Assembly (NCBI GenBank): GCA_016285245.1
Contig: JAEEQH010000005.1
Location: 62,001 to 126,000 of the forward strand
From: Prevotella sp.
GTDB lineage: Bacteria; Bacteroidota; Bacteroidia; Bacteroidales; Bacteroidaceae
Direction of reading: 5' to 3'
DNA length: 64,000 nucleotides
The position numbers were made by a program, and so were the translations under genes. Positions within the stretch are counted from its first letter, which is position 1, and each line of letters begins with the position of its first letter. Below are positions 16,434-64,000 of this stretch, one piece after another. The notes under the pieces were generated by a model. That model had not been told where the DNA came from and searched no databases. It saw only the letters and a list, made by a program, of their open reading frames with translations.

Positions 16434-19400
16434 CTAAATAGCGGTGAGGACGGCGACAGCCTCGGCAACGGTGGGGACGTCGGTGACGACCATCGAGCGT
16501 TTGCCGTTCTGCTCGCGGAGGTTACAGCGGCGGAGGTTCTTCGTGGCGTAGTCGATGACGCGTCCGAAGACGTCGCTCAGGTAGTAAGGGCTGTCAGGCT
16601 GTGAGACGAAGTAGAGGAACATCCGTCCCTGCTTCAGCAAGATTTTCTCGCACCCCAGTTGCTTGCCCAGCCGCCGCAGGGGCACCACGCGGATGAGCTC
16701 CTCGCCACAGGGCGGCACGGGGCCGAAGCGGTCGACAAGCCGCTGGCGGTACGCCTCCAGCTCGCGGTCGTCGCGCACGTTGTCCAGCTCGCGGTACAGC
16801 AGCATCCGCTCCGAGTCGCTGGGCACATACTGGTCGGGGAAGTACATCTCGAGGTCGGACTCCAGGGAGCAGTCGGCGACGAAAAGACCCTCCCCCGTCC
16901 CCTCCCTGTATGGAGGGGAATAGATAGTCTCGTTGTCAGAATTGTTGTCCTGAGAGTAACCACTCCCCTCCCTCACAGGGAGGGGTTGGGGGTGGGTCTT
17001 TTCATTCCTCAGTTCCGCCATCGCCTCGTTCAGGATCTTCTGGTAAGTCTCGTAGCCGAGGTCGCTGATGAAGCCGCTCTGCTCGGCACCCAGGAGGTTG
17101 CCGGCACCGCGGATGTCGAGGTCCTGCATGGCGATGTTGATGCCCGAGCCGAGGTCGCTGAAGTTCTCAAGGGCCTCTAAGCGGCGGCGGCTGTCCTGCG
17201 GCAGGGCGGCCAGCGGTGGCGCCAGCAGATAGCAGAAGGCCTTGCGGTTGCCGCGTCCCACACGTCCGCGCATCTGGTGGAGGTCGGATAGTCCGAAGTT
17301 ATGGGCACCATTGATGATGATGGTGTTCGCGTTGGGTATGTCGATGCCGTTCTCGACGATGGTCGTCGACAGCAGCACGTCGTAGTCGTGGTTCGAGAAG
17401 TCGAGAATGATCTGCTCCAGCTCCTCGGGTTTCATCTGTCCGTGACCGATGGCCACACGGGCATCGGGCACGTACTTATGAATCATGTCGGCAATCTCGC
17501 GCAGCTGGTTGATGCGGTTGTTGACGAAGTACACCTGTCCGTTGCGCGACAGCTCGAAGTTGATGGCGTCGCTGATGATCTCGGCACCGAAGGTGTGTAT
17601 CTCCGTCTGTATGGGGTAGCGGTTGGGCGGCGGCGTCTGTATGACGCTGAGGTCGCGGGCGCCAACGAGCGAGAACTGGAGGGTGCGCGGTATGGGCGTC
17701 GCCGACATCGTCAGCGTATCGACGTTCGTGCGCATCTGGCGCAGCTTCTCCTTCGTGGAGACGCCGAACTTCTGTTCCTCGTCGATGATGAGCAGTCCCA
17801 AGTCCTTGAACTTCACCGTCTTGCCGATGAGCTTGTGCGTACCGATGAGGATATCTATCTTGCCGTCGGCCAGGTCCTTGAGCAGCGCCGTCGTCTGCTT
17901 CGCCGTACGGGCACGCGTCAGGTAGTCCACACGCACGGGCATATCCTTCAGACGACTGCTGAACGTGCGGTAGTGCTGGTAGGCCAGCACCGTCGTGGGC
18001 ACCATCACCGCCACCTGCTTGCCGTCGCAAGCCGCCTTGAACGCTGCGCGGACGGCCACCTCGGTCTTGCCGAAGCCCACGTCGCCACAGACCAGACGGT
18101 CCATCGGCTTCGCCTGCTCCATGTCAGCCTTCACGTCCTGTGTCGCCTTCAGCTGGTCGGGGGTATCCTCGTAGAGGAACGATGCCTCCAGCTCCTGCTG
18201 CAGGTAGGTGTCGTGGCTGAAGGCGAAGCCCTTCTCGCGACGGCGGGCAGCATAGAGCTTGATGAGGTCGCGGGCGATGTCCTTGATGTGCTTCTTCGTG
18301 CGCTCCTTCAGCCGTTCCCACTGGCCTGTGCCGAGCGTCGACAGCCGCGGCGCCTCGCCACCGTCCTGCGACTTGTACTTCGACACCTTATATAAAGAGT
18401 GGATCGAGACGTAGATGGCGTCGCCGTGCTGGTAGGTAATCTTGATCATCTCCTGATAGCACTCTCCTCCCTCCTCTCTCCTCTCTCCTCTATTAATAGG
18501 CATCCTCACCAGTCCGCCGAAGCGGCCGACACCGTGGTCCACATGAACGACGAAGTCGCCCACCTCGAATTGTTGTATCTCCTTGAGCGTTAGCGCCATC
18601 TTTCCGCTGCGCGCCTTGTCGCTCTTCAGGTTGTACTTATGGAAACGGTCAAAGATCTGGTGGTCGGTGAATAGGCAGAGCTTCGCATCGTCGTCGACGA
18701 AGCCAGCGTGCAGCGTCTTGTCTACGGGAACAAAAGACAACTGAGAACTTAGAACTGAGAACTGAGAGGTATGATTACCTTCCTGCGATTTCTTCCCGCC
18801 CTGAGAGTAATCATACCTCTCAGTTCTCAGTTCTAAGTTCTCAGTTTTCAGAATCTCCTTCAGTCGTTCCTGCTGCTTAGCACTGTCGGCCAGGATATAG
18901 AGCTGGTAACCCTTGAGACTGTAGTCCTCGAGGGCGGATACCAGGAGGTCAAAGTTCTTGTGGAACAGGGGCTGGGGCCGCGTGGTAAAGGATATTTTCG
19001 AGCTATTCTCCTTCCTCGTTCCTCCTTCCTCGTTCCTCGAAAGCAAAATACGCCTGAATCGCTCGGCATCGGCCATGAACTGGGCGCCGGTCATCAGCTG
19101 GCTCTCGCGGCGCAGTTGCTGTTCAATCTCCGCCTGTTCCATCTCCGTCGCCTCCTCCAGACGCTCCTGGATGGCTTGCTTCGAGAAGCCTTCGTCGTAG
19201 GTGTGGTCAATGACGTCGCGGACGAACGACAGGTCCTTCGCCACCAGCACGGCGTCGTCGGGGAGGAACGTCAGCAGCGACACCTTCTGGCCGCTGCTGG
19301 CCGCCAGCTCCGGCACAATCTCCACCTGGTCGCGGCGGTCGCGCGACAGCTGGTCGTCCACCTCGAAGGTGCGCACGGAGTCTATCTCGTCGCCGAAGAA

Positions 19401-20060
19401 GTCGATGCGGAAGGGGTACTCGCTGTTGTAGCTGTAGACGTCGAGGATGGAGCCGCGCAGGGCGTACTGTCCCGGCTCGTAGACGTAGTCAACCTCGCGG
19501 AAGCCGAAGTCGTGGAGCGTCGTCTCGATGTCGGCAACGCTGATGAGCTGTCCGGTCGTCAGCGTCAGCGTCCGTTCGCAGAGCACCCGCTGGTCGACAA
19601 CCATCTCGGCGAGGGCCTCGGGATAGGTGACGATGTAGAACTGAGAACTGAGAACTGAGAACTGAGAGGTATGATTACCTTGCTGTGGCTTTTCATTTAG
19701 CGTAGTCAGTACTTCGGTACGGAGGATCTCGTTGGCGGCATCGCGCTGTGCATACTTCACGGCACGGCGGTAGCTGCTGGGGAAGAAGAGGACCTGCTTG
19801 TCGCCAAGCATCTGTACAAGGTCGTGGTAGAAGTAGCCCGCCTCCTCGGCATCGTTGAGAATAACAAGGAAGAAACTATTCTCTCTCCTCTCTCCTCTCT
19901 CCTCTCTCCTCTGACCAAGAGCCGCAAACGCCATCGGGGCGGCGGAACCGACAAGTCCCTCGAGGAGAATCGTCTTGGACGACTTCTCCCCGAGGGTCTT
20001 CGCCAGCGCCCGCACCTTCGGGTGCATGGCGTAGAGCTGACACAGTTCCTGTATGGTCAT
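16434..20060 (-). CDS. mfd: Transcription-repair coupling factor Mfd with six in-frame repeat insertions
   Basis: This 1208-residue ATP-dependent translocase removes stalled RNA polymerase and recruits UvrA. The N-terminal UvrB-homology module is followed by the RNA-polymerase-interaction domain (EVGDFVVHVDHGVGRFGGLV). The RecG-type helicase has CGDVGFGKTEVAVRAAFKAA (Walker A, ~658), LLIIDEEQKFGV (~757), SATPIPRTLQFS and QMRGRVGRG. The start overlaps the upstream small gene by ATGA. Six segments look inserted: GQRREERGERREN, QQGNHTSQFSVLSSQF, SRNEEGGTRKEN, a 36-codon inverted repeat, NRGERREEGGEC, and a 41-codon palindromic block with PLPVREG. All keep the frame and appear to lie in linker regions, so the protein is probably functional. 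Confidence 0.95.
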   Translation of the reverse strand: MTIQELCQLYAMHPKVRALAKTLGEKSSKTILLEGLVGSAAPMAFAALGQRREERGERRENSFFLVILNDAEEAGYFYHDLVQMLGDKQVLFFPSSYRRAVKYAQRDAANEILRTEVLTTLNEKPQQGNHTSQFSVLSSQFYIVTYPEALAEMVVDQRVLCERTLTLTTGQLISVADIETTLHDFGFREVDYVYEPGQYALRGSILDVYSYNSEYPFRIDFFGDEIDSVRTFEVDDQLSRDRRDQVEIVPELAASSGQKVSLLTFLPDDAVLVAKDLSFVRDVIDHTYDEGFSKQAIQERLEEATEMEQAEIEQQLRRESQLMTGAQFMADAERFRRILLSRNEEGGTRKENSSKISFTTRPQPLFHKNFDLLVSALEDYSLKGYQLYILADSAKQQERLKEILKTENLELRTERYDYSQGGKKSQEGNHTSQFSVLSSQLSFVPVDKTLHAGFVDDDAKLCLFTDHQIFDRFHKYNLKSDKARSGKMALTLKEIQQFEVGDFVVHVDHGVGRFGGLVRMPINRGERREEGGECYQEMIKITYQHGDAIYVSIHSLYKVSKYKSQDGGEAPRLSTLGTGQWERLKERTKKHIKDIARDLIKLYAARRREKGFAFSHDTYLQQELEASFLYEDTPDQLKATQDVKADMEQAKPMDRLVCGDVGFGKTEVAVRAAFKAACDGKQVAVMVPTTVLAYQHYRTFSSRLKDMPVRVDYLTRARTAKQTTALLKDLADGKIDILIGTHKLIGKTVKFKDLGLLIIDEEQKFGVSTKEKLRQMRTNVDTLTMSATPIPRTLQFSLVGARDLSVIQTPPPNRYPIQTEIHTFGAEIISDAINFELSRNGQVYFVNNRINQLREIADMIHKYVPDARVAIGHGQMKPEELEQIILDFSNHDYDVLLSTTIVENGIDIPNANTIIINGAHNFGLSDLHQMRGRVGRGNRKAFCYLLAPPLAALPQDSRRRLEALENFSDLGSGINIAMQDLDIRGAGNLLGAEQSGFISDLGYETYQKILNEAMAELRNEKTHPQPLPVREGSGYSQDNNSDNETIYSPPYREGTGEGLFVADCSLESDLEMYFPDQYVPSDSERMLLYRELDNVRDDRELEAYRQRLVDRFGPVPPCGEELIRVVPLRRLGKQLGCEKILLKQGRMFLYFVSQPDSPYYLSDVFGRVIDYATKNLRRCNLREQNGKRSMVVTDVPTVAEAVAVLTAI
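16881..17003. repeat. 123-bp inverted-repeat element inside mfd (PLPVREG type)
   Basis: Left arm GAAAAGACCCTCCCCCGTCC... and right arm ...GGGGGTGGGTCTTTTC are near-perfect inverted copies of ~42 bp. Each arm itself folds (CCCTCCCTG / GGAGGGG), around a ~36-bp centre. The element adds exactly 41 codons in the mfd frame. Confidence 0.85.
18463..18499. repeat. GGAGAGA-type 7-bp repeats inside mfd
   Basis: On the coding strand this is a run of GAGAGGA/GGAGAGA units encoding RGERREEGGE between the otherwise conserved MPI and YQEMIKI segments. The same repeat type recurs at 19880-19912. Confidence 0.7.
18739..18846. repeat. 108-bp element with perfect 40-bp inverted repeats inside mfd
   Basis: Arms 18739-18778 and 18807-18846 are exact reverse complements, each made of AACTGAG-type 7-bp units followed by AGGTATGATTAC. 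The spacer is 28 bp. The total is exactly 36 codons in the mfd frame. Confidence 0.92.
19006..19039. repeat. TTCCTCG/TTCCTCC 7-bp repeats inside mfd
   Basis: Consecutive heptamers TTCCTCG, TTCCTCC, TTCCTCG, TTCCTCG encode RNEEGGTRKE on the mfd strand. An almost identical block occurs in the lptD-like gene (43350-43408). Confidence 0.8.
19638..19681. repeat. AACTGAG heptamers plus GGTATGATTACC core inside mfd
   Basis: Four tandem AACTGAG units followed by AGGTATGATTACCTT match one arm of the 18739-18846 inverted repeat. They encode QGNHTSQFSVLSSQ in frame. Confidence 0.8.
19880..19912. repeat. CTCTCTC/CTCTCCT 7-bp repeats near the mfd 5' end
   Basis: Tandem units on the coding strand read GGAGAGA and encode REERGERRE between conserved N-terminal segments of Mfd. 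Confidence 0.75.
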
Positions 20061-31020: not shown

Positions 31021-31113
31021 GCAAAAAGCCCAAATATTTTTGCAAAACGTCACAATTTATTGATTTCCGCTAACTTTTTGCACCAATCCAGCCGCCGTTA
31101 ACAAATCATAATT

Positions 31114-31157
31114 CTTAATTGTCAATTATCAATTATCAATTAAAAATCGTACCTTTG
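31114..31157 (+). promoter_or_regulatory. AT-rich heptamer repeat and -7 box ahead of tRNA-Arg
   Basis: Units TTAATTG, TCAATTA, TCAATTA, TCAATTA (31115-31142) lead to TACCTTTG at 31150-31157, 43 bp before the tRNA 5' end. The heptamer family recurs at 46572-46602 and 50042-50095. Confidence 0.5.
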
Positions 31158-33418: not shown

Positions 33419-33470
33419 CGGCTATTACAACTGTTTTTTATGCCGTTTGATTTTGAGTCAAGGCGAGGAA

Positions 33471-33536
33471 ATTTTGCGTTCAGGCACAAGACATTTTGCG
33501 TATAGGCGCAAAGCATTTTGCGTATAGGCAAAATCG
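33471..33536. repeat. Three 22-bp tandem repeats
   Basis: Three contiguous 22-bp units, ATTTTGCGTTCAGGCACAAG.., ATTTTGCGTATAGGCGCAAA.., ATTTTGCGTATAGGCAAAAT.., with the last two differing only at their 3' ends. Confidence 0.85.
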
Positions 33537-33619
33537 AAATAACCCTACCCTTTTACCCGGCAACAATGGTCTTTGAACCGCCAAAGGCCTACCCTGTACC
33601 TCAAAAGCTTAGCTTTTCG

Positions 33620-33764
33620 CTCGACAACATCAACAAAATGGCATTTTGTTTTGTATTGTTCTCGCTTATTCGTACTTTGACGATGTCGAAGGTACTGTCA
33701 CTCGACAATAAAAACAAAATGCGGGCATTTTGTTTTGTATTGTTCTCGCTTATTCGTACCTTTG
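33620..33764 (+). promoter_or_regulatory. Tandemly duplicated promoter of the PP2C-like gene
   Basis: Copy B (33701-33764) has TTG (33735-33737), N19, TACCTTTG. Copy A (33620-33679) shares nearly all of the sequence but its -7 box is TACTTTG, one base short. Copy B lies eight bases from the ATG at 33773, so the transcript is almost leaderless. Confidence 0.7.
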
Positions 33765-33772
33765 TCGGCGAT

Positions 33773-34579
33773 ATGGAAGTAATTGAGCAAAGCTGTATAG
33801 CTAAAGACCCTAAGGGGAAGGGCGAAGACGGGCTGGTGGTGACGCCAGACTTCATCGCCGTTATTGACGGCAGCACGTCGAAGTCGGACTACCGCCACTC
33901 ACGATGGCGTACCAACGGACGACAGGCCATGAAGATTGTGGCACGCCACATCAGCCGGATGCCGAAGGAAACGACGCTGGAGAAGTTTCTGACTGGCGTG
34001 ACAGCCGCCATCCGCAGCCACTACAAACGGCGGATGCTGCCACAGCTACAGGAGCACCCCGAGGACCGTCTAACGTGCTCGGTGGTGGTTTACAGCCGCT
34101 TGTGCCGCGAGATATGGATGGTGGGCGACTGCCAATGCCTGGTGGACGGCGAGCTGTACGACAACCCGAAGCCCTACGAGGCCGAGCTGGCGGCGCTGCG
34201 TGCCGAGGAGGTGCGCCGTCAGCTGGCAGCGGGACGGACACAGGACGAGCTGTTGGACAACGACACGGCCCGTCCCGTCATCATTCCACGAATGCTGGAG
34301 ACGATGCGCGAGCAGAACGTCACGTACAGCGTCGTCGACGGTTTCTACATCCCCCGTCAGCTGGTGCGCACGGTGACGCTCGACTTCCGTCCGTGGGAGA
34401 TTGTGCTGGCATCGGACGGCTATCCGTTCCTCTGCCCCACCCTTGCGGAGAGCGAGCAGCGCCTCAGCCGTCAGCATGAGGAAGACCCGCTGAACATCGG
34501 CACGTTCCAGGCGACGAAGTGCTTCCGCCCGGGCTTCAACGGTTTCGACGACAGGACTTTTATACGCTTTCGCGTATAG
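33773..34579 (+). CDS. PP2C-like phosphatase-fold protein
   Basis: From the ATG at 33773 the 268-residue product begins MEVIEQSCIAKDPKGKGEDG and contains DGLVVTPDFIAVIDGSTSKS, resembling the DGxGG/metal region of PP2C proteins. LTCSVVVYSRLCREIWMVGD (GD metal motif) and a late LASDGYPFL follow. This is a divergent PP2C-type protein, probably a metal-dependent phosphatase, with no linked kinase to indicate a substrate. Its stop codon lies in the GATAAGA heptamer repeat that joins it to the convergent PL9 gene. Confidence 0.7.
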   Translation: MEVIEQSCIAKDPKGKGEDGLVVTPDFIAVIDGSTSKSDYRHSRWRTNGRQAMKIVARHISRMPKETTLEKFLTGVTAAIRSHYKRRMLPQLQEHPEDRLTCSVVVYSRLCREIWMVGDCQCLVDGELYDNPKPYEAELAALRAEEVRRQLAAGRTQDELLDNDTARPVIIPRMLETMREQNVTYSVVDGFYIPRQLVRTVTLDFRPWEIVLASDGYPFLCPTLAESEQRLSRQHEEDPLNIGTFQATKCFRPGFNGFDDRTFIRFRV

Positions 34580-34626
34580 ATAAGAGATAATAGATAAGAG
34601 ATACTAGATAAGAGATAAGAGATTTA
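34577..34626. repeat. GATAAGA 7-bp repeats between convergent genes
   Basis: Six heptamers in register (GATAAGA, GATAATA, GATAAGA, GATACTA, GATAAGA, GATAAGA). The PP2C stop TAG and the PL9 stop (TAA, minus) both lie in the repeat edges. Confidence 0.9.
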
Positions 34627-36840
34627 TCTGATTTTCATGCAAGCGACGGTGCGGCCGCCGTTCTCCACTTTCAGTACGATGAGGGACTGGGTGGCGGGCA
34701 GGCGTAGTGTCGTCGTACGGCCAACGAAAGGATGCTGGAACAGGAGGCGTCCGGCGGCATCGTAGCCCTTGACACAGAAGTCGTTACCCATCGTCTCGCC
34801 GTTATTACCCGTCGTCTCGCCGTTGTTACCTGTCGTCTCGCCGTTGACGGTCAGCAGGAGGAGGCCACTCGCCGTGTGACGGAGGCTGAGGGCACTTGAC
34901 ACCGGCTGTTGGGCGACGGCTGAGAGCGCCGTGACGCTGTGGCTGTGCTCATAGGCGCCGAGGTCGGGAGCAGCGCCGTTATAACTGATGCCGCCCACGC
35001 TGATGCCACGATAGTCGGCAGCGCCGACGGCGGTACCGGCATCGATAAGGAACGAGCCGTCGACGAGGTGGGCGAAGGTTGTCTCCGGCAGGGCATCGTC
35101 AGGCTGGCGCGGGCCAATCAGCTCCTCGTGGTTGTCGACGGCGAGGAACTGTGCGGGAGCCGCTTTCTGGAACTCGCTGCTGACAACCGTCAGCCCCTTC
35201 AGCGTCTCGTCGACCTCGAAACGGCCGTACTGCCCGTATTTCCCATGCTCGCCGTCCTTGATGACGCCGTTCTTGTCGCGCTTGTCGGTGGCGTCGTTGT
35301 CGTTGATGGCGATGCAGTTGGTGAGGCGCACCTCATGGCCGTCGGCTATCTCCTCGTAGATGCGGTAGGAGTAGGTCTTGTCGCTAATGCTCTTCAGCGT
35401 CATGCCCGTGCAGTTATTGAGGATGATGTCGCCGGCATTATGGTTCTGGTCGAAGCCCTTAGCCTTGTTACAGACGGCCAGGCAGCGGTTCATGTAGATG
35501 TTCATCGCCCCTTGGTTCGAGCCACACTTGAAGCCGTTGCCGTTGCCGTCGGGCGCCAGTCTGTCGAGGTCGAGGAATCCGTTCTTGTAAGCGATGCAAT
35601 TCTCCAGGATAACGCAGACATTGTCCTTCTGTCCGCTGTCCTTCTTGTAAAAGACGTCCCAGCCGTCGTCAGAGTTCAGCCACGCCCGACAGCCGTAGAA
35701 GTAGTTGCCGTCGCCGACGGAGAGCTTGGGTGCGAAGCCGTCGGCATCGCCCTCGCCCTCGTCACAGTTCAGGTAGGCGTCGCAGTTCACGACGCTGTTG
35801 AAGGCGGCGAGGTTCTTCATCTGGAGTCCCGTGTCACCGTTCTTGTAGAAGTTGCACGCCTCGATGAGGTTGTCGTGTGCCTGGTATTCCGGGAAGCCGT
35901 CCTTCGACTCGCGCTCTATGAGCAGTCCGTTGTCCGAGGCGTTACAGATATCAATATGGTAGAAGTGCCAGTAGGAGCCCGTCAGACGGATGCCCTGCTG
36001 GGGGTTGTCGGCGTGCTTGTGGTAGGGCATGGCCGAGAAGTCGAGCACCGCCCGTCCGTCGTCACACCTCAGGGTGATGAGCTTCTCGCGGCTGCCGCAG
36101 TTGCTGATGTTCACTCGGGCATCGTAGACATACGTGCCAGAGAGCATGACGATGGTGTCGCCAGCCCCCGCCAGGTTGACTGCCCGCTGCAGCGAGAAGA
36201 ACGGTTTTTCCAGCGTGCCGTCGGCCGTTTGGTCGTCGCCCGTTGGTGAGCACCAGAAGGTCTCGACGATGCCGTTGTCGGCGACAGGTGCCTCCCCTCC
36301 CCCTCCGGCCTCCGGGTCGTAGGGATAGACGGCGAGGTTGTCGATGTCGCAGTCGTTGGAACCGTTGTAGTTCTCCAGCTTCACACGGTTGGCCAGCGGG
36401 TCGTTCACGCTGACGCTGTTGTGCTCGGCCGTCGACTTGCTGAACTCCTGCACCTGCGTCCACGTCAGGCCACCGTCATGCGAGGTGTATACGCGGATGT
36501 ACTTCTTTGTACGGCCCTCGTCGAAGGTCACCTTGCCGATGCCCTCGCCGACGATGGGCGTCACCACATAGGAGCCGCCCTTCACCATACGGAGGTCGGC
36601 CAGCGAGCCGTCCTTCACGTAGTTGGTCTTCATCGAAGCGCCGAGCACGACATAGGCGTTCTTGAAGCGCCACTCGCCTTGTCCCTCAACGTTGGCTGCA
36701 AACTCCGTCTGTGCCTGTTCGCTGCTGACGAGGCCGGTGTCGTCGAATGTCTGTAGGAAATAAGGCTCCTGAGCCCATACTGATACGGATGCCCACAGCA
36801 TGGCCAGGGCAAGGAATGGTTTGCAGATCTTGGTTGTCAT
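34624..36840 (-). CDS. PL9-family pectate lyase with type-IX-like C-terminal domain
   Basis: The signal peptide ends VSVWA. Residues ~25-170 form a carbohydrate-binding-like beta domain. A right-handed beta-helix follows (~190-620) with the PL9 core DADGFAPKLSVGDGNYFYGC and RAWLNSDDGWDVFYK, whose Asp cluster binds the catalytic calcium. The family cleaves polygalacturonate by beta-elimination. A linker of three 7-residue units (GETTGNN) precedes a ~70-residue C-terminal domain (CVKGYDAAGRLLFQ ... LKVENGGRTVACMKIR) like type A type-IX secretion signals. No other pectin genes are adjacent. Confidence 0.88.
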   Translation of the reverse strand: MTTKICKPFLALAMLWASVSVWAQEPYFLQTFDDTGLVSSEQAQTEFAANVEGQGEWRFKNAYVVLGASMKTNYVKDGSLADLRMVKGGSYVVTPIVGEGIGKVTFDEGRTKKYIRVYTSHDGGLTWTQVQEFSKSTAEHNSVSVNDPLANRVKLENYNGSNDCDIDNLAVYPYDPEAGGGGEAPVADNGIVETFWCSPTGDDQTADGTLEKPFFSLQRAVNLAGAGDTIVMLSGTYVYDARVNISNCGSREKLITLRCDDGRAVLDFSAMPYHKHADNPQQGIRLTGSYWHFYHIDICNASDNGLLIERESKDGFPEYQAHDNLIEACNFYKNGDTGLQMKNLAAFNSVVNCDAYLNCDEGEGDADGFAPKLSVGDGNYFYGCRAWLNSDDGWDVFYKKDSGQKDNVCVILENCIAYKNGFLDLDRLAPDGNGNGFKCGSNQGAMNIYMNRCLAVCNKAKGFDQNHNAGDIILNNCTGMTLKSISDKTYSYRIYEEIADGHEVRLTNCIAINDNDATDKRDKNGVIKDGEHGKYGQYGRFEVDETLKGLTVVSSEFQKAAPAQFLAVDNHEELIGPRQPDDALPETTFAHLVDGSFLIDAGTAVGAADYRGISVGGISYNGAAPDLGAYEHSHSVTALSAVAQQPVSSALSLRHTASGLLLLTVNGETTGNNGETTGNNGETMGNDFCVKGYDAAGRLLFQHPFVGRTTTLRLPATQSLIVLKVENGGRTVACMKIR

Positions 36841-36958: not shown

Positions 36959-38197
36959 ATGGATATTACAGAGAGATTCCTGAACTACACGAAATACGAC
37001 ACGCAGTCGGCAGAGGACAGCCAGACGGTGCCGAGTACCGCGAAACAGCTGGTCTTTGCAGAGTACCTGAAGAAGGAGCTGGAGGCCGAAGGGCTGAGCG
37101 ACGTCGTAATGGACGACAAGGGCTACATCTACGCCACGCTGAAGGCTAATACGAAGGAGGATATCCCCACCATCGGCTTCATCTCGCACTACGACACCTC
37201 GCCCGACTGCTCGGGAGCCGACGTCAAGGCCCGCATCGTGAACAACTACAATGGCGGAGACATTGTGCTGGGGGGATTCGAGGAACGAGATTACCTTATA
37301 ATGTCTCCCAAGAAGTTTCCGGAGCTGCTGAGCCACGTGGGGGAGGACCTCATCGTCACCGACGGCACGACGCTGCTGGGTGCCGACGACAAGGCCGGCA
37401 TCGCTGAGATTGTGCAGGCGATGGTGTACCTGCAGGAGCACAAGGAGGTGAAGCACGGCGACATCCGCTTGGCCTTCAACCCCGACGAGGAGATCGGCAT
37501 GGGTGCCCACCACTTCGACGTGGAGCGCTTCGGTTGCCAGTGGGCGTACACCATGGACGGCGGCGACGTTGGCGAGCTGGAGTTCGAGAACTTCAACGCC
37601 GCGTCGGCGAAGATATATATAAAAGGTGTAAGCGTGCACCCCGGCTATGCCAAGGGCAAGATGGTGAACGCCAACCGGCTGGCGGCGGAGTTTGCCGCCC
37701 TGCTGCCCGCCGACGAGACACCCGAGACGACTGAGGGCTACCAGGGGTTCTACCACCTGACGGCCATCCAGGGTACGGTGGAGCAGGCCACGCTGTCGTA
37801 CATCATCCGCGACCACGACCGCGACCGCTTCGAGGACCGCAAGCGTGCCATCCAGAACGCCGTCATCGCAATGAACGAGCGTTACGGCGAGGGTACGGTG
37901 ACGGCCGAGGTGAAGGACCAGTACTACAACATGAAGGAGAAGATTGAGCCACAGATGCACGTCATCGACGTTGTGCTGCACGCCATGCAGGCCGTCGGTG
38001 TGGCTCCGAAGGTGAAGCCCATCCGTGGCGGCACCGACGGTGCGCAGCTGTCGTTCCGCGGTCTGCCCTGCCCCAACATCTTTGCCGGCGGCGTGAACTT
38101 CCACGGCCCCTACGAGTTCGTGAGCATCCAGTCGATGGAGAAGGCGATGCAGGTCATCGTTAAGATCTGCGAGCTGACAGCCGACTATAATAGATAA
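36959..38197 (+). CDS. pepT: Peptidase T (tripeptide aminopeptidase)
   Basis: The 412-residue product has the M20B peptidase layout: [16 protein letters not shown] (first metal His-Asp), [15 protein letters not shown] (bridging Asp), [15 protein letters not shown] (catalytic Glu-Glu), [20 protein letters not shown], the lid [19 protein letters not shown], and [19 protein letters not shown] near the end. It removes N-terminal residues from tripeptides in the cytoplasm. Its last two codons and stop lie in a GATAAGA repeat that continues to the next gene's ATG. Confidence 0.95.
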
Positions 38198-38210
38198 GAG
38201 ATAAGAGATG
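38188..38210. repeat. GATAAGA heptamers spanning the pepT stop and antiporter start
   Basis: AATAGATAAGAGATAAGAGATGG holds the pepT stop (TAA) and the ATG of the antiporter at 38208. It is the same heptamer as at 34577-34626. Confidence 0.85.
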
Positions 38211-40475
38211 GCGGAGTTACCTGCAATGATACAAGACCTGGCGCTGATACTCGTTGTAGCGGGCATCGTGACGCTGGTGTTCAAGCGGCTGAAGCAGCCG
38301 CTGGTGCTGGGCTACATCGTGGCTGGTTTCCTTGTGTCTCCCCATATGCCGCTGACGGCGTCAGTGGCCGACATGGCGAACATCCACCTGTGGGCAGACA
38401 TCGGCGTGATGTTCCTGCTGTTCTCGCTGGGTCTGGACTTCTCGTTCAAGAAAATCCTGAAGATGGGTGCCTCGCCGATCATCTCGACCGTCACCATCAT
38501 CTTCTCGATGTCGATGCTCGGCATCATCGTCGGCCACCTGTTCGGCTGGACGAAGATGGACTGCATCTTCCTCGGCGGTATGCTGGCCATGTCGTCGACC
38601 ACCATTATCTATAAGGCTTTCGACGACCTTGGTCTGCGCCAGCAGCAGTTTGCCGGACTGGTGATGTCGGTGCTCATCCTGGAGGACATCCTTGCCATTG
38701 TCATGATGGTGATGCTGAGTGCCATTGCCGGCGGCGGCAATCCCGACGGCGGACAGATGGTGGGCTCGGTGCTGAAGATCGGCTTCTTCCTCGTGCTGTG
38801 GCTTGTCGTTGGCATCTTCGCCGTACCGCTGTTCCTGCGCAAGGTACGCCGGCTGATCAATGCCGAGGTGCTGCTCATCGTGTCGCTGGGCCTGTGCTGT
38901 GCCATGGCGGTGTTCTCGACGAAGGTGGGCTTCTCGTCGGCCTTCGGTGCCTTCATCATGGGTAGCATCCTGGCCGAGACGGTCGAGGCGGAACGCATCG
39001 AGAAGCTGGTGGAGCCGGTGAAGAACCTCTTCGGCGCCATTTTCTTCGTGTCGGTAGGTATGCTCGTCGACCCGCAGATCCTCGTCGACTATGCCTTCCC
39101 CATCCTCACCCTCGTGCTGACCATCCTCGTCGGGCAGTCGGTCTTCGGCTCGATGGCCTTCATCCTCGGCGGCGAGAGCCTGAAGTCGGCCATGCGCTGC
39201 GGCTTCTCTATGGCGCAGATCGGTGAGTTCTCGTTTATCATCGCCTCGCTGGGTCTGTCGCTGGGCGTCATCGGTGATTTCCTCTATCCGGTCGTGGTGG
39301 CCGTATCGGTCATAACCACGTTCCTCACACCTTACATGATACGGCTCGCCACACCGGTTTACAACACCCTGGAACCCCGTCTGCCGTCACGGCTCATCAG
39401 CTCGCTGAACCACCTGTCGACGAGCCGGTCGGAGACGACGGCACGGTCGGGTCACAACAGCCTGTGGAAACGTCTGCTGAAGCAGATGACCATCAACACG
39501 GTGGTCTACTCCATCCTCTCGACGGCGGTCATCGCGCTGATGTTCATGTTCGTGCTGCCGCTGACGCGCCGTATGCTGCCCGGCTGGGAGCTCCACTGGT
39601 ATGCCAACGCCATCACCGGCTCGCTCACCGTGCTGCTGATAGCCCCCTTCCTGCGTGCCATGGTGATGAAGAAGAACCGCTCGGAGGAGTGGAAGGCGCT
39701 GTGGGCGGAGAGCAACCGCAACCGTCTGCCCCTGCTGTTCACCATCCTTGTGCGCTTCGTCATCGCGGTGAACTTCATCTTCTACATCTGCAACTACCTG
39801 AGCCGCTTCACCCCCGCCATCATGATCACCATCGGCGTGGTGCTGATACTGCTCATCGTCGCCTCCCGTCGCATCAAGCACAACAGCATCCGGCTGGAGC
39901 GGCTGTTCATCAACAACCTGCGTTCGCGCGACATCGAGGCACAGGTACACGGCCGCAAGCGTCCGCTGTACGAGAACCGCCTGCTGGACCGTGACATCCA
40001 CATCGCCGACTTCGAGGTGCCCATCGACTCGCGTTGGGCAGGCAGCACGCTGAAGGAGCTGGCGCTGGGTCGCAAGTACGGTGTCCACGTGAGCAGCATC
40101 CTGCGTGGCAGCCGCCGTCTGAACATCCCCGACGGCGACTCCATCATCTTCCCCGCCGACCACCTGCAGGTCATCGGCAGCGACGAGCAGCTGAGCCAGC
40201 TGCACCACGCCCTTCAGACGGACATCCTGGGCGACGACCCTGAGCTGGAGAAGCGTGAGATGCGCCTGCGCCAGCTCATCATCGGCACCGACAGCCCGTT
40301 CATCGGCCAGACGCTGGAAGAGAGCGGCATCCGCAGCCATTACAGCTGCATGGTCGTGGGATTGGAGGAAGGCAAGGAGAACCTCTCGACCTTCTCGCCG
40401 AAGCGTCGTTTCAAGGAGGGTGACATCATCTGGATCGTCGGTGAGCAGGAGTCGCTCGACTCCTTACTGAAATAA
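38208..40475 (+). CDS. CPA2-type cation/proton antiporter with two TrkA-C domains
   Basis: Residues 1-~390 contain about 12 membrane helices with the KefB/CPA2 motifs LVLGYIVAGFLVSP, LFSLGLDFSFKKIL and FSSAFGAFIMGSILAET. Unusually a second membrane block of four or so helices (~430-560) follows. The C-terminus has two TrkA-C-like regulatory domains (residues ~605-690 and ~695-755: IDSRWAGSTLKELALG, SPFIGQTLEESGI). No TrkA-N (Rossmann) domain is seen between them and the membrane part. It probably exchanges K+ or Na+ for protons at the inner membrane. It sits 10 nt after pepT. Confidence 0.9.
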   Translation: MAELPAMIQDLALILVVAGIVTLVFKRLKQPLVLGYIVAGFLVSPHMPLTASVADMANIHLWADIGVMFLLFSLGLDFSFKKILKMGASPIISTVTIIFSMSMLGIIVGHLFGWTKMDCIFLGGMLAMSSTTIIYKAFDDLGLRQQQFAGLVMSVLILEDILAIVMMVMLSAIAGGGNPDGGQMVGSVLKIGFFLVLWLVVGIFAVPLFLRKVRRLINAEVLLIVSLGLCCAMAVFSTKVGFSSAFGAFIMGSILAETVEAERIEKLVEPVKNLFGAIFFVSVGMLVDPQILVDYAFPILTLVLTILVGQSVFGSMAFILGGESLKSAMRCGFSMAQIGEFSFIIASLGLSLGVIGDFLYPVVVAVSVITTFLTPYMIRLATPVYNTLEPRLPSRLISSLNHLSTSRSETTARSGHNSLWKRLLKQMTINTVVYSILSTAVIALMFMFVLPLTRRMLPGWELHWYANAITGSLTVLLIAPFLRAMVMKKNRSEEWKALWAESNRNRLPLLFTILVRFVIAVNFIFYICNYLSRFTPAIMITIGVVLILLIVASRRIKHNSIRLERLFINNLRSRDIEAQVHGRKRPLYENRLLDRDIHIADFEVPIDSRWAGSTLKELALGRKYGVHVSSILRGSRRLNIPDGDSIIFPADHLQVIGSDEQLSQLHHALQTDILGDDPELEKREMRLRQLIIGTDSPFIGQTLEESGIRSHYSCMVVGLEEGKENLSTFSPKRRFKEGDIIWIVGEQESLDSLLK

Positions 40476-40480
40476 GCCCA

Positions 40481-43400
40481 TTAGTACCACTGCACGGCGT
40501 TGGAGTAGCTTGAGCGCTTGTCGTACTTCAGCGCGTCGGTCAGTGTGGAGGCGTTACAACGGAAGGTGAAGTTGTAACTGGCGTAGGGGGATAGCACCAC
40601 GGAGCACGACATATTGAAACAGTGTAGGTCGCGTCCCAGCGAGGCGGTGGTCATGGATATCTTCTTGTTCTCGAAGTCGTAACCGCTGGAGAACGAGATG
40701 TTCCAGCCGTCGGAGAGGCGCAGGTTTCCGCTGACGTTCAGGTTCTGCGTGAACTTGTAGGGATAGCGCATCGTCTTGTAGTTGAACTTCTTGACATCGG
40801 TATTCTCGCGCATGGTGATGCCATAGCCGAAGCTGAGCGACCACGGCAGCGAGAACTTCATGTAGCCGTCGCCGTCGACCTCGCCCTTTCCGGCGTTCTC
40901 CTTGCGTGCGCCATGCTTGGCCTTCTCCTGATCATGGTCTACGTTCGACTCGATGTCGTCCAGCTCGTCGTCCTCCTCGTCGTCCATGCGTCGGTCGCGG
41001 CGGTCGTCTTTCTTCTCGACCTTCTCGCCCTTGAGCCACTTGATGAGGTTGCTCACCTTACCGTTGTCGAGGGTGTAGCTGAAGTTCTGCGACATACCCT
41101 GGAAGCGGCCTATCTTACCCATGCCCCAGTAGGTCTTGTGTTCGCTGAGTCTCGGCGTGGCGCCCACGCTGTCGGCCTCGTAGACGTAGCTGGCAAAGAC
41201 GGCGTTCAGGTTCAGCGTGTAGCTCTTCGTCAGCTTCAGGCGTATGCGTGTGCTGAGGTCGCTCCACGGTCGCACCTTCGCCGACATGTTGTAGGACATC
41301 GAGCCTCCTAGCTCGTCGATGATGCTCACCTTCTTGAAGTCCACGGTGTCGCCGTCTGTGCGCAGCTTCATCTCGACGTTGTTCGACACGTCGAACGATA
41401 TGCTTCCCGTCTTTCCCTTGCCGGGCCGTCCGTAGAGTCCGTTCTCGTAGGGCGAGTACTCCACGAGTGTGACGTTGCCGTCGGCGTCGGTCTTCTGGTA
41501 GGTCTTGTAGTAGCCGTAGCGCTTGGCCCCGAAGTCGGGGGCGTAGCTGAAAGAGATGGTGGGTGTCAGTACGTGGCGTATGGCCTCGATCTTGTTGCCG
41601 AAGAGCTTGCGGTTGGGTATGAAGAATCCGTAGAGCTTCGTCGATATGCCCATGTTCATGCTCCAGTTATAGACGTTGTACAGTCCGTTCAGCGTGTCGA
41701 TGACCTCCTTCTGGGCGGCTTCGTCCCACGACTTCTGGATCTTTGTCAGGTAGGTGCGGTCGGTGAAGTTGAACGAGGGGTTCACGCTGATGACGTCGAA
41801 GAAGGTGAAGTTGCCGCTCAGGGGTATGGTGTGCTGCATACCGTTCTTCCAGTCCTTCGTGAAGCTGGAGTGCAGCAGCTGGTCCTCCTTGGTGCTGATG
41901 GAGTTCGAGAAGTGTCCGGTGTACTGCATCGACAGCTTCTCGTACCACCGCTCCTTACCCAACAGCTTCTTGCGCTTGAAGGGGTAGAAGCGCGAGAACG
42001 AGATGTTCAGGTCGGGCAGGGTCATGGCGATGGTGGTGTCACGCATGTTCTGGTTCAGGTTGACGGTAGACGACAGCGACAGTCCTATGCTCGAGAAGTT
42101 CGTGCCCCATGATACCGACGACGTTCTCGTGGACTGCGTCATGGCCTGGGGGTTGTACATCGACGTGAGGTTGTTCTTCTCGTAGCTGCTCGTGGCGAAA
42201 TTGACCGATGCCGAGAGGTTCGAGTAGGGATTGGCCTTCGCGTCCTGTCGGTGGCTCCACTGCACCTTGAAGCTGGTCTGCTTCGTGTAGTCGGGCATGT
42301 TCTTCTCGCCGGTGACGGTGTTCTGGTAGCTGGCGTGGAACGAGCCGCTGTATCGGTAGCGCTTGCGGTAGTTGCTGGCTGCCGACAGTCCCCACGAGCC
42401 CTTGGTGTATATCTCGCCGATGAGCTTCAGGTCTACCTTGTCGCTGATGGCGAAGTAGTAGCCGCCGTCGCGCAGGTAGAAGCCACGGCTCATCTCGTCG
42501 CCGTAGGTGGGCATGATGAAGCCGCTGGAGTAGCTCTTCGAGAAGGGGAAGAAGCCGTAGGGCACGGCCAGCGGCAGGGGCACGTCGCAGACGACGAGGT
42601 ATGCCGGTCCGAAGACGACATCCTTGCCCGGCCGCACCTTGGCGCGTGACATGGCTATGTAGAAGTCGGGGTGCGGCTCGTCGCAGGTGGTGTAGCGTCC
42701 GTGCTGCAGGAACAGCTCGCCTCCGGCGCCGCGCTTCGACAGCTCCGAGGTCAGGAATCCGTCCTCCTGCTGTGTGTACACCTGTGTGATGAGTCCCTTC
42801 TTCGTCTTGAAGTTGAAGGCCATCGTGTCGCTCTGGTACTCGTCGCTGCCCATCTTGAACACCGGTGTGCCGAACTTCACGCCCAGCGTGTCCAGGCTGC
42901 CCGTGGCGTGTACCAGGCTGCTGTCCAGCACCATCGCTATCTTGTCGCTCTGCAGGTCCATGTTCTGGTACTCCACGTGCGACTTGCCATAGAGGTGTGC
43001 GCGCCCCGTGGCGGCCTCGTAGGTCAGCGAGTCGTTGGCCGAGTACTTCACCGGTGCGTCGATGCCGTTCTTGCGTTGGCGATTCAGCGAGTCGAGTGCC
43101 AGCGAGTCGTCTACGAGCTTGTTGTACCTATAGATAGCCAGCTCCAGTGAGTCCATCGTCGTCGTGTCGCGCTTCATCTTCGCCGCTGCCGGTGCCTCGG
43201 CCTCCGCCAGCAGCCCCTCAGCCTCACTCGCTGTAGGAACAGCCGCCGACGCCGTCGCCGCCAACGTATCAGCAGCAGCCACGGCCGTCGCCAGTGTATC
43301 AGCCGTCGTCGCCACAGCCGTCGCCAACGTATCAATGCTTAAACTATCCTCCTTCCTCGTTCCTCCTTCCTCGTTCCTCGAAAAAAATCCTCCTTCCTCG

Positions 43401-44655: not shown

Positions 44656-44696
44656 CGCCCTTCCGCAGTATATATTGCGGAGGGGCGTCTTTTGTG
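44656..44696 (+). terminator. Terminator of the smalltalk gene
   Basis: GCGCCCTTCCGCA ... TGCGGAGGGGCG forms a strong stem with TCTTTT after it, 22 nt past the stop. Confidence 0.8.
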
Positions 44697-44716
44697 ACTT
44701 GTGACTTGTGACTTTT
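44692..44716. repeat. TTGTGAC 7-bp tandem repeats
   Basis: Three in-register TTGTGAC units follow the smalltalk terminator, before the end of the convergent carboxyltransferase gene. Confidence 0.75.
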
Positions 44717-46519: not shown

Positions 46520-46571
46520 AGTACTGTAATTGTTGTTATTTCCGGATTTCTTCGGCAAAGGTATAAAAAAA

Positions 46572-46602
46572 TTGTGAATTGTGCATTGTGAATTGTGCAT
46601 TA
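46572..46602. repeat. ATTGTGA/ATTGTGC heptamers between divergent genes
   Basis: ATTGTGA, ATTGTGC, ATTGTGA, ATTGTGC in register. One TTG of the repeat provides the -33 element of the plus-strand promoter at 46586-46615. Confidence 0.8.
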
Positions 46603-50041: not shown

Positions 50042-50095
50042 ATACAATTATGAATTGTCAATTGTGAATTGTCAATTGTGAATTGTCAATTACCC
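50042..50095. repeat. AATTGTC/AATTGTG heptamers at the rplY-pth junction
   Basis: Units AATTGTC and AATTGTG alternate five times between the rplY stop (TAA within the last unit, 50090-50092) and the pth start. Confidence 0.9.
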
Positions 50096-52251: not shown

Positions 52252-53235
52252 ATGAGTCATCTGCGCGCGGGACTACGCCTATTCAGGAGCTTCCTGTTCA
52301 GTAAAACGAACAGGGAGTTTCTGATTTTCTTGTTCTTCCTTGCCATCTCCGGCGTCTTCTGGCTGATCATGGCACTCAACGAGACCTACGAGGAGGAAGT
52401 CAGCTTCCCAGTGCACATCACCGGTGTACCGAAGGATGTCATGCTCACCAGCGACGATGTCGACACCGTTCGCGTCACCATCAGAGATAAGGGCACACAG
52501 CTGATCTCCTATCTCTACGACGAGAACATCCGCCATCTGAAAGTCAGCTTCAAGAACTACGATCGTGGCAACGGCACAGGCATCGTACCAGCCTCCGACC
52601 TTCAGAAGCTGGTTCAGCAACGGCTGGGACAGTCAGCGAAGATTACGGCCATCAAGACCGAACGGTTAAACATATTCTATAACACGGGCGCCAGCAAGCG
52701 CGTGCCCGTGCGATGGAGCGGACGCGTCATCCCCGAGCACTTGTATTTCATCTCACATGTAGGCTACTCCGTCGACAGCGTCACCGTCTACGCCGCAGAG
52801 CGTCAGCTCGACAGCATCAAGACCGTCTATACGGAGCCACTCAACTACGCCGGTTTCCGCGACACCCTCAGCATCAGCTGCCGTCTGCAGCGGAGCGAAG
52901 GTGTCAAGGTGGTCCCCGACCGCATCAACGTCACATTCTACACCGACGTCCTTGCAGAGGTGAGCATCGACGACGTACCCGTCACCGGCATCAATATGCC
53001 CGAGGGCAAGGTGCTACGCACATTCCCATCCCGTGTCAAGGTGACATTTGTCACTGGTGTCAACAACTACAAGAGCCTCAAGGCCAGCGACTTCACGGTC
53101 GTGGCCGACTACAATGAGATCATGCAACGGCCTGCCGAGAAGTGTAACCTCTATCTGAAGCGTACACCATCGGGCATCTCCAGGGCAACTCTGCAGCAGA
53201 CACAGGTAGACTACCTCATCGAGGAGGAAAATTAA
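52252..53235 (+). CDS. YbbR-like domain protein
   Basis: One N-terminal membrane helix (FLIFLFFLAISGVFWLIMAL) is followed by several YbbR-type beta domains (residues ~50-320: EEVSFPVHITGVPKDVML, LDSIKTVYTEPLNYAGFRDT). In other bacteria YbbR (CdaR) can regulate the diadenylate cyclase CdaA, but no cdaA is adjacent here. Its stop codon lies in the first unit of a TAAGCAT repeat. Confidence 0.88.
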   Translation: MSHLRAGLRLFRSFLFSKTNREFLIFLFFLAISGVFWLIMALNETYEEEVSFPVHITGVPKDVMLTSDDVDTVRVTIRDKGTQLISYLYDENIRHLKVSFKNYDRGNGTGIVPASDLQKLVQQRLGQSAKITAIKTERLNIFYNTGASKRVPVRWSGRVIPEHLYFISHVGYSVDSVTVYAAERQLDSIKTVYTEPLNYAGFRDTLSISCRLQRSEGVKVVPDRINVTFYTDVLAEVSIDDVPVTGINMPEGKVLRTFPSRVKVTFVTGVNNYKSLKASDFTVVADYNEIMQRPAEKCNLYLKRTPSGISRATLQQTQVDYLIEEEN

Positions 53236-53281
53236 GCATTAAGCATTGAGCATTAAGCATTAAGCATTAAGCATTAAGCAT
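53233..53281. repeat. TAAGCAT/TGAGCAT heptamers joining ybbR and coaE
   Basis: Seven heptamers in register connect the ybbR stop (TAA, 53233-53235) to the TTG start of coaE at 53281. The same heptamer family forms the menC-menE junction. Confidence 0.95.
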
Positions 53282-53898
53282 TGAAAAAAACTGCTATCAC
53301 AGGAGGCATAGGCAGTGGCAAGAGCTATGTGGCACGGCTGCTGAAACGACGCGGTATCGACGTCTACGACTGCGATGCGGCGGCAAAGCGGCTCATGCGC
53401 CACGATTCGGAACTACGCCGACAACTCACCGCCCTCATAGGCCCAGACTGCTACCTCGTCCCGGAGTCCGGCCCAAACTGTTACCTCGCCTCGGAGTCCG
53501 GCCAACAGCCCACTCTCAACAAGGCGGCCGTAGCACAGTTCCTGCTGGCCAGTGAGGAAAATGCCCACGCCATCGACGCCATCGTCCACCCCGCCGTCTT
53601 CCGTGACTTCGAGGAGAGTGGGCTGCTGTGGCTCGAGTCGGCCATCCTCTACGAATCCGGCGCCAACCGTCTCGTTGACCGCGTCATCGTCGTTACAGCC
53701 CCCGAGGAGGTACGCGTACAGCGCATCATGGCCCGCGACGGACTGAGCCGTGAGAGGGCATTCGAGTGGTTAGGGCGCCAGTGGCCACAGGACGAAGTGC
53801 GCCGCCGTGCCGACTTCGAAATTGTGAACGACGGCATCGCTGACCTCGACAGCCAGATAGATGCCTTCCTCAGTCGATATAACGACATCACGTTATAA
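53281..53898 (+). CDS. coaE: Dephospho-CoA kinase (TTG start)
   Basis: ITGGIGSGKSYVARLLKRRG is the P-loop, YDCDAAAKRLM and HPAVF follow, and ESAILYESGANRLVDRVIVV carries the substrate motif. It phosphorylates dephospho-CoA in the last step of CoA synthesis. The only plausible start is TTG at 53281, which is the first codon after (and partly formed by) the heptamer repeat. Residues ~54-73 contain a duplicated 10-residue unit (GPDCYLVPES, GPNCYLASES) from a 30-nt direct duplication. The C-terminus YNDITL and stop lie in an octamer repeat. Confidence 0.93.
   Translation: MKKTAITGGIGSGKSYVARLLKRRGIDVYDCDAAAKRLMRHDSELRRQLTALIGPDCYLVPESGPNCYLASESGQQPTLNKAAVAQFLLASEENAHAIDAIVHPAVFRDFEESGLLWLESAILYESGANRLVDRVIVVTAPEEVRVQRIMARDGLSRERAFEWLGRQWPQDEVRRRADFEIVNDGIADLDSQIDAFLSRYNDITL
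53440..53499. repeat. 30-bp tandem duplication inside coaE
   Basis: Two 30-bp units starting GGCCCA encode GPDCYLVPES and GPNCYLASES, an insertion relative to the usual CoaE spacing between the P-loop domain and the lid. Confidence 0.8.
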
Positions 53899-62970: not shown

Positions 62971-63027
62971 CAATGCTTAATGCTTAATGCTTAATGCTTA
63001 ATGCTCAATGCTTAATGCTTAATGCAC
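62971..63027. repeat. TTAAGCA-type heptamers joining menC and menE
   Basis: Eight heptamers (TAATGCT/CAATGCT on the plus strand). The last codons of MenC (CALSIKH, stop at 63005) are read from the repeat, and the menE ATG follows it directly. It is the same family as 53233-53281. Confidence 0.92.
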
Positions 63028-64000
63028 AATTCTTCACCCTCCACAGTTTGTCGCCACGAATTTCCAGTCCCATATCGATATTGTCCGTAAACAGCTGGCC
63101 CGTGCCGAGTCCCTGGGGCATCGTGATCTGTTCGCCATAGACGTCGCTGCAGAACTGTGCGATAGCGTTCAACCCGACATTGCTCTCCAGCGCCGAGGTA
63201 ATCCACGAGCCGATGGCCCTGTCGTGTGCCTCAGCTATCCACTCACGACAGCCCGCCATACCACCGTGTAGCGACGGCTTCAGGATGATGTACGCAGGAC
63301 AGATGGTGTCCAACAGCTCGCGTTTACGGTCGGGAGCATTGATGCCAATCAGCTCCTCGTCGAGGGCGATGGGCAGCGGCGACTGTCGGCAGAGCTCCGC
63401 CATCTGTTCCCACTGTCCGGCACGGATAGGCTGTTCGATGGAATGCAGGGCATAGTGTGACAACTGCTCCAGCTTTCCCAGAGCCTCATCGGGGGCAAAG
63501 GCGCCATTGGCATCGACGCGCAGCTCCACGTCTGATGGGCCGAAGCGCTGGCGTATCTGTTTCAGCAGCGCCAGCTCATCGTCAAAGTTGATGGCCCCGA
63601 TCTTCAGCTTCACACAATGGAAACCCTGCGCCAGTTTCTGCTCAATGCGCCTGCTCATCTCCTCGTACGTACCCATCCACACCAGTCCGTTGATGGGGAT
63701 GCCCACCTCGCCACGAGTAAACGGTGTATCGAAGAGTGTAGAGTGTAGAGTATAGAGCGCCGTCTCCAGTCCGAAGAGCATCGACGGATAGTCGCGCAGA
63801 GCATCAAAAGGAAGCTGTCCCGTCCGCTCCACCTCGTCGCAGTAGCCCCGCAGTACCTTCACGTACTGCTCCGGTAGCAACGCGTCGCAGCTCAAGTCGG
63901 GCAGCGGTGCACACTCTCCTGTTCCGACGGCAGAACAGTCGGACGCTCTAAGCAGCCATATTCGCCGTTCGGTATATACGCCACGCGATGTTCCCGCCGG
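63005..64000 (-). CDS. menC: o-Succinylbenzoate synthase (5' end outside window)
   Basis: The enolase-superfamily motifs are present: GTGECAPLPDLS, GIPINGLVWMGTYEEM, CVKLKIGAINFDDELALL (catalytic Lys), ELRVDANGAFAPDEA and LDEELIG (metal ligands), and IILKPSLHGGMAG (second Lys). It makes OSB from SHCHC in menaquinone synthesis. The frame stays open from the ORF-track start to the window edge (AGTSRGVYTERRIWLLRASD), so the gene is partial. Heptamers TGTAGAG encode LYTLHSTLF at 63730-63757, and the last seven residues come from the junction repeat. Confidence 0.93.
   Translation of the reverse strand, partial: PAGTSRGVYTERRIWLLRASDCSAVGTGECAPLPDLSCDALLPEQYVKVLRGYCDEVERTGQLPFDALRDYPSMLFGLETALYTLHSTLFDTPFTRGEVGIPINGLVWMGTYEEMSRRIEQKLAQGFHCVKLKIGAINFDDELALLKQIRQRFGPSDVELRVDANGAFAPDEALGKLEQLSHYALHSIEQPIRAGQWEQMAELCRQSPLPIALDEELIGINAPDRKRELLDTICPAYIILKPSLHGGMAGCREWIAEAHDRAIGSWITSALESNVGLNAIAQFCSDVYGEQITMPQGLGTGQLFTDNIDMGLEIRGDKLWRVKNCALSIKH
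63730..63757. repeat. TGTAGAG heptamers inside menC
   Basis: CGAAGAG, TGTAGAG, TGTAGAG, TATAGAG in register, coding LYTLHSTLFD between conserved blocks. Confidence 0.8.

Follow-up and report, generated by a model that had tools for sequence, protein, structure and literature searches.

The window, meaning the whole 64,000-nt stretch of Prevotella DNA that was analyzed, carries two arrays of a GATAAGA-type heptamer at gene junctions 3.6 kb apart (Table 1). The first lies between two convergent genes, one PP2C-like and the other encoding a polysaccharide lyase. It consists of the units AGATAAG, AGATAAT, AGATAAG, AGATACT, AGATAAG and AGATAAG followed by the 4 nt AGAT, in agreement with a sequence-only reading of the locus that had described six in-register GATAAGA-type units between convergent genes. 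The same reading had placed both stop codons inside the array edges. This is correct for the PP2C-like gene, whose TAG overlaps the array, but the lyase stop marks the edge of the array and is not inside it, because 0 nt separate the stop from the array end. Among the gene names proposed at that time, pepT, antiporter and PL9 (Pel9A-like beta-helix) were supported, while PP2C is a weak assignment, with a Pfam match below the cut-off. In relatives, the PP2C-like genes end at the equivalent codon, after an RFRV-like sequence, with no array there, and a period-7 array at this junction, (AATTGTC)n, was seen in one other genome (L227). A hairpin, ATACGCTTTCGCGTAT, precedes the array; it was rejected as part of the element because array-free relatives encode the same IRFRV-like end. 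Other repeats were seen in these two genes and near them. Tandem repeats of 22 nt occupy window positions 33450-33780, the N-terminal residues 2-33 of the PP2C query match many unrelated places in relatives, as a further dispersed repeat read as protein would, and the 3' portion of the lyase gene contains a 21-nt repeat (34783-34846) that encodes NGETTGN-type repeats three times.

At the second junction, the array (ATAATAGATAAGAGATAAGAGAT) contains the pepT stop TAA at positions 38195-38197, and its last two bases are the AT of the antiporter ATG at 38208-38210, confirming the placement of the GATAAGA unit at a second junction with the pepT stop and the antiporter start. The closest relatives of the antiporter were found in rumen Prevotella and in Prevotellaceae metagenome-assembled genomes (MAGs). 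A period-7 array was present at the pepT/antiporter junction in 19 of 78 relatives, with differing units, and arrays of period 4, 5, 6, 9, 11 or 13 numbered zero in the same 78. The unit was GAGATAA in the closest relative (L142) and GATAGTT, AGTGAAT, GAGGTAA, AATTGAA and others elsewhere. The majority of orthologous junctions in relatives were free of arrays and at several of them the genes overlap, as pepT and the antiporter gene do in G007. Upstream of the antiporter in one genome (G003, L028:1390-1500), two copies of a CTCCTCCCTTGGGGAGGAGCTGGAGGTGGGT palindrome were observed where other species have heptamer arrays. The 3.6-kb gap between the two GATAAGA arrays was considered as a meaningful distance and rejected, because 27 loci in 2.77 Mb lead one to expect about one pair that close. 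A promoter/terminator scan found no intrinsic terminator at either GATAAGA array, and Rfam reported a tRNA and nothing else over the window.

Table 1. Genes, stop codons and heptamer arrays in the window
Feature	Position	Strand	Remarks
mfd (transcription-repair coupling factor)	16434..20060	-	six in-frame heptamer arrays
(AGAGGAG)n array in mfd	18464..18491	-	in frame
Left arm of 40-nt perfect inverted repeat in mfd	18739..18778	+	(AACTGAG)n array + GGTATGATTAC core
Right arm of 40-nt inverted repeat in mfd	18807..18846	-	28-nt loop; in frame; array runs on to 18851
(CGAGGAA)n array in mfd	19008..19039	-	in frame
(AACTGAG)n array + GGTATGATTAC core in mfd	19637..19678	+	single
(AGAGGAG)n array in mfd	19881..19912	-	in frame; 32 nt
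(AATTATC)n array	31109..31142		intergenic
PP2C-like gene	33683..34579	+	gene call; Pfam PP2C_2 E = 0.023, below cut-off
Stop TAG of PP2C-like gene	34577..34579	+	overlaps first 2 nt of array
Heptamer array (AGATAAG)6.6	34578..34623	+	between convergent genes; TRF, direct reading
Stop TAA of polysaccharide lyase (Pel9A-like) gene	34624..34626	-	abuts array
Pel9A-like beta-helix gene, polysaccharide lyase	34624..36840	-	
pepT, peptidase T	36959..38197	+	NCBIfam TIGR01882 E = 3e-159
Heptamer array (ATAAGAG)3.3	38187..38209	+	holds pepT stop and AT of antiporter start
Na/H exchanger-TrkA_C antiporter gene	38208..40475	+	
(CGAGGAA)n array	43347..43380	-	inside LptD gene
(TTGTGAC)n array	44692..44714		intergenic
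(AATTGTG)n array	46570..46601		intergenic; 32 nt
(AATTGAC)n array	50046..50091	-	overlaps a gene's stop codon
(AAGCATT)n array	53231..53282	+	overlaps a gene's stop codon
(AAGCATT)n array	62972..63025	-	overlaps a gene's stop codon
(AGAGTGT)n array	63733..63757		inside a gene

The window holds 16 period-7 arrays, compared with 0.0 per run in first-order Markov simulations of it, and these arrays are not due to chance. A census was made with a lag-match detector (lag-7 score 13) over stretches amounting to 1.19 Mb (43%) of the source genome, a rumen Prevotella MAG of 2.77 Mb that is 81% complete, with genes called by a simple codon-usage caller; the array statistics thus come from one MAG and from several tests on one shared array set, with multiplicity uncorrected. 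The census found 151 period-7 arrays, against none of period 4 or 5, four of period 6, and one each of periods 10 and 11. The genome as a whole carries several hundred short heptamer arrays. Periods 8 and 9 were likewise raised, to 32 and 36 arrays, without a length peak. The length of period-7 arrays, detectable from 17 nt up, had its mode at 32 nt both inside and outside genes. About 47 units occur among the 151 arrays, and seven of them, AAGCATT, AACGAGG, AATTATC, AGAGAGG, AACTGAG, AAGAGAT (the GATAAGA family) and AAGAGTG, account for about 90. The GATAAGA pattern AGATAA[GT]AGATAA is found at 27 loci across the 2.77 Mb, two of which, one at the end of contig C3 and one at the end of C59, are duplicates of each other. 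In 80 relatives, 1.04 Mb yielded 96 period-7 arrays, whose lengths peaked more broadly, at 29-34 nt, and 291 kb taken from eight additional families in the order yielded one.

Within genes, 67 of the 151 arrays lie in frame, among them those of mfd. Its six arrays include the two arms of a perfect inverted repeat (Table 1). Most relatives have no array in mfd; one (G008) has five different ones, and the same mfd loop holds inverted pairs of different units in the two genomes. Peptides encoded by such arrays (SQFSVLSSQF and RREERGERRE, for example) are met by annotators as unexplained low-complexity insertions. Mfd also has an in-frame insert specific to its lineage at about residues 1023-1055, HPQPLPVREGSG...SPPYREGTGEGL. 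The insert comes with two similar motifs, PVREG and PPYREG, and has the look of one more dispersed repeat that has entered a protein. Elsewhere in the window, a 234-bp unit is repeated 3.5 times at 7935-8748, inside the ORF at 7036-9702.

Stop content sorts the arrays between sites. When neither strand of the unit carries a stop, 36 of 44 arrays lie inside genes; when both strands do, 1 of 24 is inside a gene. For one-strand-stop units inside genes, the open strand was sense in 25 of 30, a figure obtained by scoring the sense strand for G over C, a criterion that coincides with the open strand for most of these units but not for all. Another 37 one-strand-stop arrays lie outside genes and were oriented by their stop strand. 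In 22 of these the stop strand was sense and the array either overlapped a codirectional gene's stop or followed it by no more than 25 nt (about 4 expected): 8 overlapped the stop (2.5 expected) and 14 followed it (1.6 expected). In the opposite orientation, 0 overlapped (2.4 expected) and 2 followed (1.6 expected), a total of 2 versus about 4. The overlap class is partly mechanical, because an array with stops in all frames supplies the stop itself when it lies in the last codons of a gene. The 14-versus-2 sense bias after an intact stop is not mechanical, and the reading-frame filter alone does not explain it. Among the 27 GATAAGA loci, 13 contain or abut the stop of a gene, with the stop-bearing strand sense in all 13.

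The sequence-only reading had named enrichment at stop codons in advance as the deciding point, and for stop-bearing units this enrichment is present. Its suggestion that the TAA in the unit suits the arrays to stop sites survives as a sorting rule for those units, not for heptamer arrays as such; with all units pooled, 22 of 84 non-coding arrays contain a stop, compared with 17.8% by chance. Arrays as such are not stop-codon elements. Contact with starts was not enriched: 4 of the 84 touched a start compared with 15.6% by chance, gene starts being especially approximate because the gene caller was simple. Seeding of arrays in register from a gene's own stop was considered and was not supported, since 1 of 19 after-stop arrays was in register. 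At the pepT junction, array and stop were in register in 6 of 20.

A bias of this kind could point to selected intercistronic elements, acting as terminators or leaders between codirectional genes through all-frame stops and an unstructured run to the next ATG, with the in-gene copies as by-products. In line with this, the one-strand-stop arrays described above lie sense rather than antisense at codirectional stops, the next codirectional start is within 25 nt in 8 of the 37 (1.8 expected), mostly at junctions where the array also follows a stop, and in many cases the array itself makes the stop or start. However, a large share of the arrays is inside genes, most orthologous junctions are array-free, several with overlapping genes, and the units change completely between species. 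We regard selection for such elements as an unlikely explanation of the arrays.

The surroundings of the arrays bear on a second explanation, in which simple-sequence repeats are born in place by local replication slippage, with a polymerase slipping in 7-nt steps. Period 7 dominates the census, many bacteria have heptamers as their most frequent long-repeat unit, with slippage cited for them, and variant units are mixed within arrays. The variant units [GT]AGATAA, found in mixed order within arrays, also fit local slippage after arrival. On the other hand, slippage in place does not lead one to expect the same unit at unrelated loci, as at the 27 GATAAGA loci, nor the same flanking core outside the repeat. 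An (AACTGAG)n array is followed by a GGTATGATTA core in 10 of 11 cases and an (AAGAGTG)n array by a ATTTGCTNCCGC core in 5 of 8, and all 11 genome sites of GGTATGATTAC adjoin heptamer arrays (reversed control, 0). Also against slippage, different loci share the same composite neighbors, lengths peak at 32 nt and do not simply fall off from the detection limit, and array pairs within 250 bp of each other are more often inverted (17) than direct (3). The composite, present at five loci, runs from a GATAAGA array through a short hairpin, whose sequence varies, to an AAGCATT array. Birth in place by slippage is unlikely in our judgment. Hairpins flanking arrays were only weakly enriched overall (10 of 84 versus 5.8%) and were rejected as a general feature. 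Four further places in this genome (L119:17013, L128:10459, L130:9719 and L133:7790) have an AAGCATT array enclosed in a larger inverted-repeat element with repeats of 9 nt (CCCGCTTAT, for example); these are palindromic elements of a second class.

Comparison with known systems helps to place these arrays. Direct repeats of the heptamer TAACTGA have been described in marine Beggiatoaceae, some Cyanobacteria and a few Bacteroidetes (MacGregor 2015, PMC4679880), with the remark that coding potential will restrict where, and in which orientation, the repeats are tolerated. Like the arrays studied here, they are short tandem heptamers, usually of two to six copies, scattered over the genome, species-specific and mostly intergenic. 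Unlike them, they have one dominant unit, with related heptamers rarely repeated, in place of some 47 units, and they lie just upstream of starts, whereas here arrays touching a start are depleted, 3' ends are favored and nearly half of the arrays are in frame inside genes. TAACTGA itself was absent among the units of the 151 arrays. Binding of a sequence-specific protein, as suggested for the TAACTGA repeats of Beggiatoaceae, might be read from the constant spacing of 7 nt and from a favored length close to three turns of the helix, but that precedent is itself only a proposal, and the number of units in one genome, many of them in unrelated coding sequences, their rapid turnover between species and the depletion of arrays at starts, where the Beggiatoa arrays lie upstream of them, make binding sites a very improbable account.

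The arrays also fit the description of prokaryotic long simple sequence repeats, with a unit of 1-11 nt and a length above chance, for which slippage was proposed (Mrazek et al. 2007, as cited in PMC4679880 and PMC4692102). As far as those citing accounts describe them, such repeats and the heptamers of Xanthomonas and Nostoc share with our arrays the heptamer excess and the rapid change at the same junctions between close species; the flanking cores, the in-gene inverted pairs and the strand rule are features of the Prevotella arrays. Rickettsia palindromic elements, which are short palindromes of about 100-150 bp found in frame in unrelated metabolic genes (PMC10969869), resemble only the (AACTGAG)n-GGTATGATTA subset, whose pairs lie in frame in mfd and other genes. 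This likeness is one of manner rather than of membership and implies no common descent. The arms here, by contrast, are heptamer arrays plus a short core, the loops mostly vary, and single arrays predominate over palindromic ones. A RAYT/Y1 transposase was rejected as mobilizer, and the arrays thereby differ from REP/RAYT elements, as the best PF01797 match in this 81%-complete genome fell below the family cut-off. Of the features of MITEs, inverted arms were present, and a target duplication was not recognized by eye in two pairs. Over-representation of heptamers in bacteria is known, without an accepted reason. In the open-access literature searched, we found no description of such arrays in Prevotella, nor of many-unit cassettes with cores, in-gene inverted pairs and a strand rule.

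Collectively, we consider it probable that the arrays are dispersed heptanucleotide cassettes with fast turnover between species, whose site of survival is set by reading frame and some of which act as intercistronic spacers. The observations behind this reading are the period-7 excess, the families with shared units, the flanking cores, the inverted pairs, the array-hairpin-array modules and the species-specific presence at orthologous sites. The GATAAGA arrays would be one of several cassette families, most often about 32 nt long, that spread by copying, possibly through gene conversion, template switching or a mobilizing enzyme. Purifying selection would then sort the copies. Units free of stops on both strands would persist in frame in proteins and units with stops on both strands outside genes, while units with stops on one strand would mostly persist in one of two settings: immediately at a codirectional gene's 3' end, oriented so that the stop strand is sense, or inside genes, oriented so that the open strand is sense. 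Since 7 cannot be divided by 3, successive repeats fall in different frames, and about 21 nt of a GATAAGA array in sense orientation are enough to present a stop in each of them. Such an array may therefore provide a neutral-to-useful spacer at a gene junction, which would end upstream translation and lead to the next ATG. The remaining orientation bias may reflect selection at the level of the mRNA. A single genome with so many kinds of unit allows them to be compared for coding filter, strand, length and flanks. Some arrays have come to lie in frame in genes such as mfd and lptD, and in this way they would supply new protein loops in a genus that is dominant in the rumen.

A bolder proposition, which we hold to be doubtful, is that Prevotella possesses an unrecognized dispersal system of cassettes of about 32 nt, with family-specific cores, placed singly or in inverted pairs in coding and non-coding DNA and written in each species' own words. 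If true, such a system would reshape protein loops without disturbing the frame and would alter the wiring of gene junctions.
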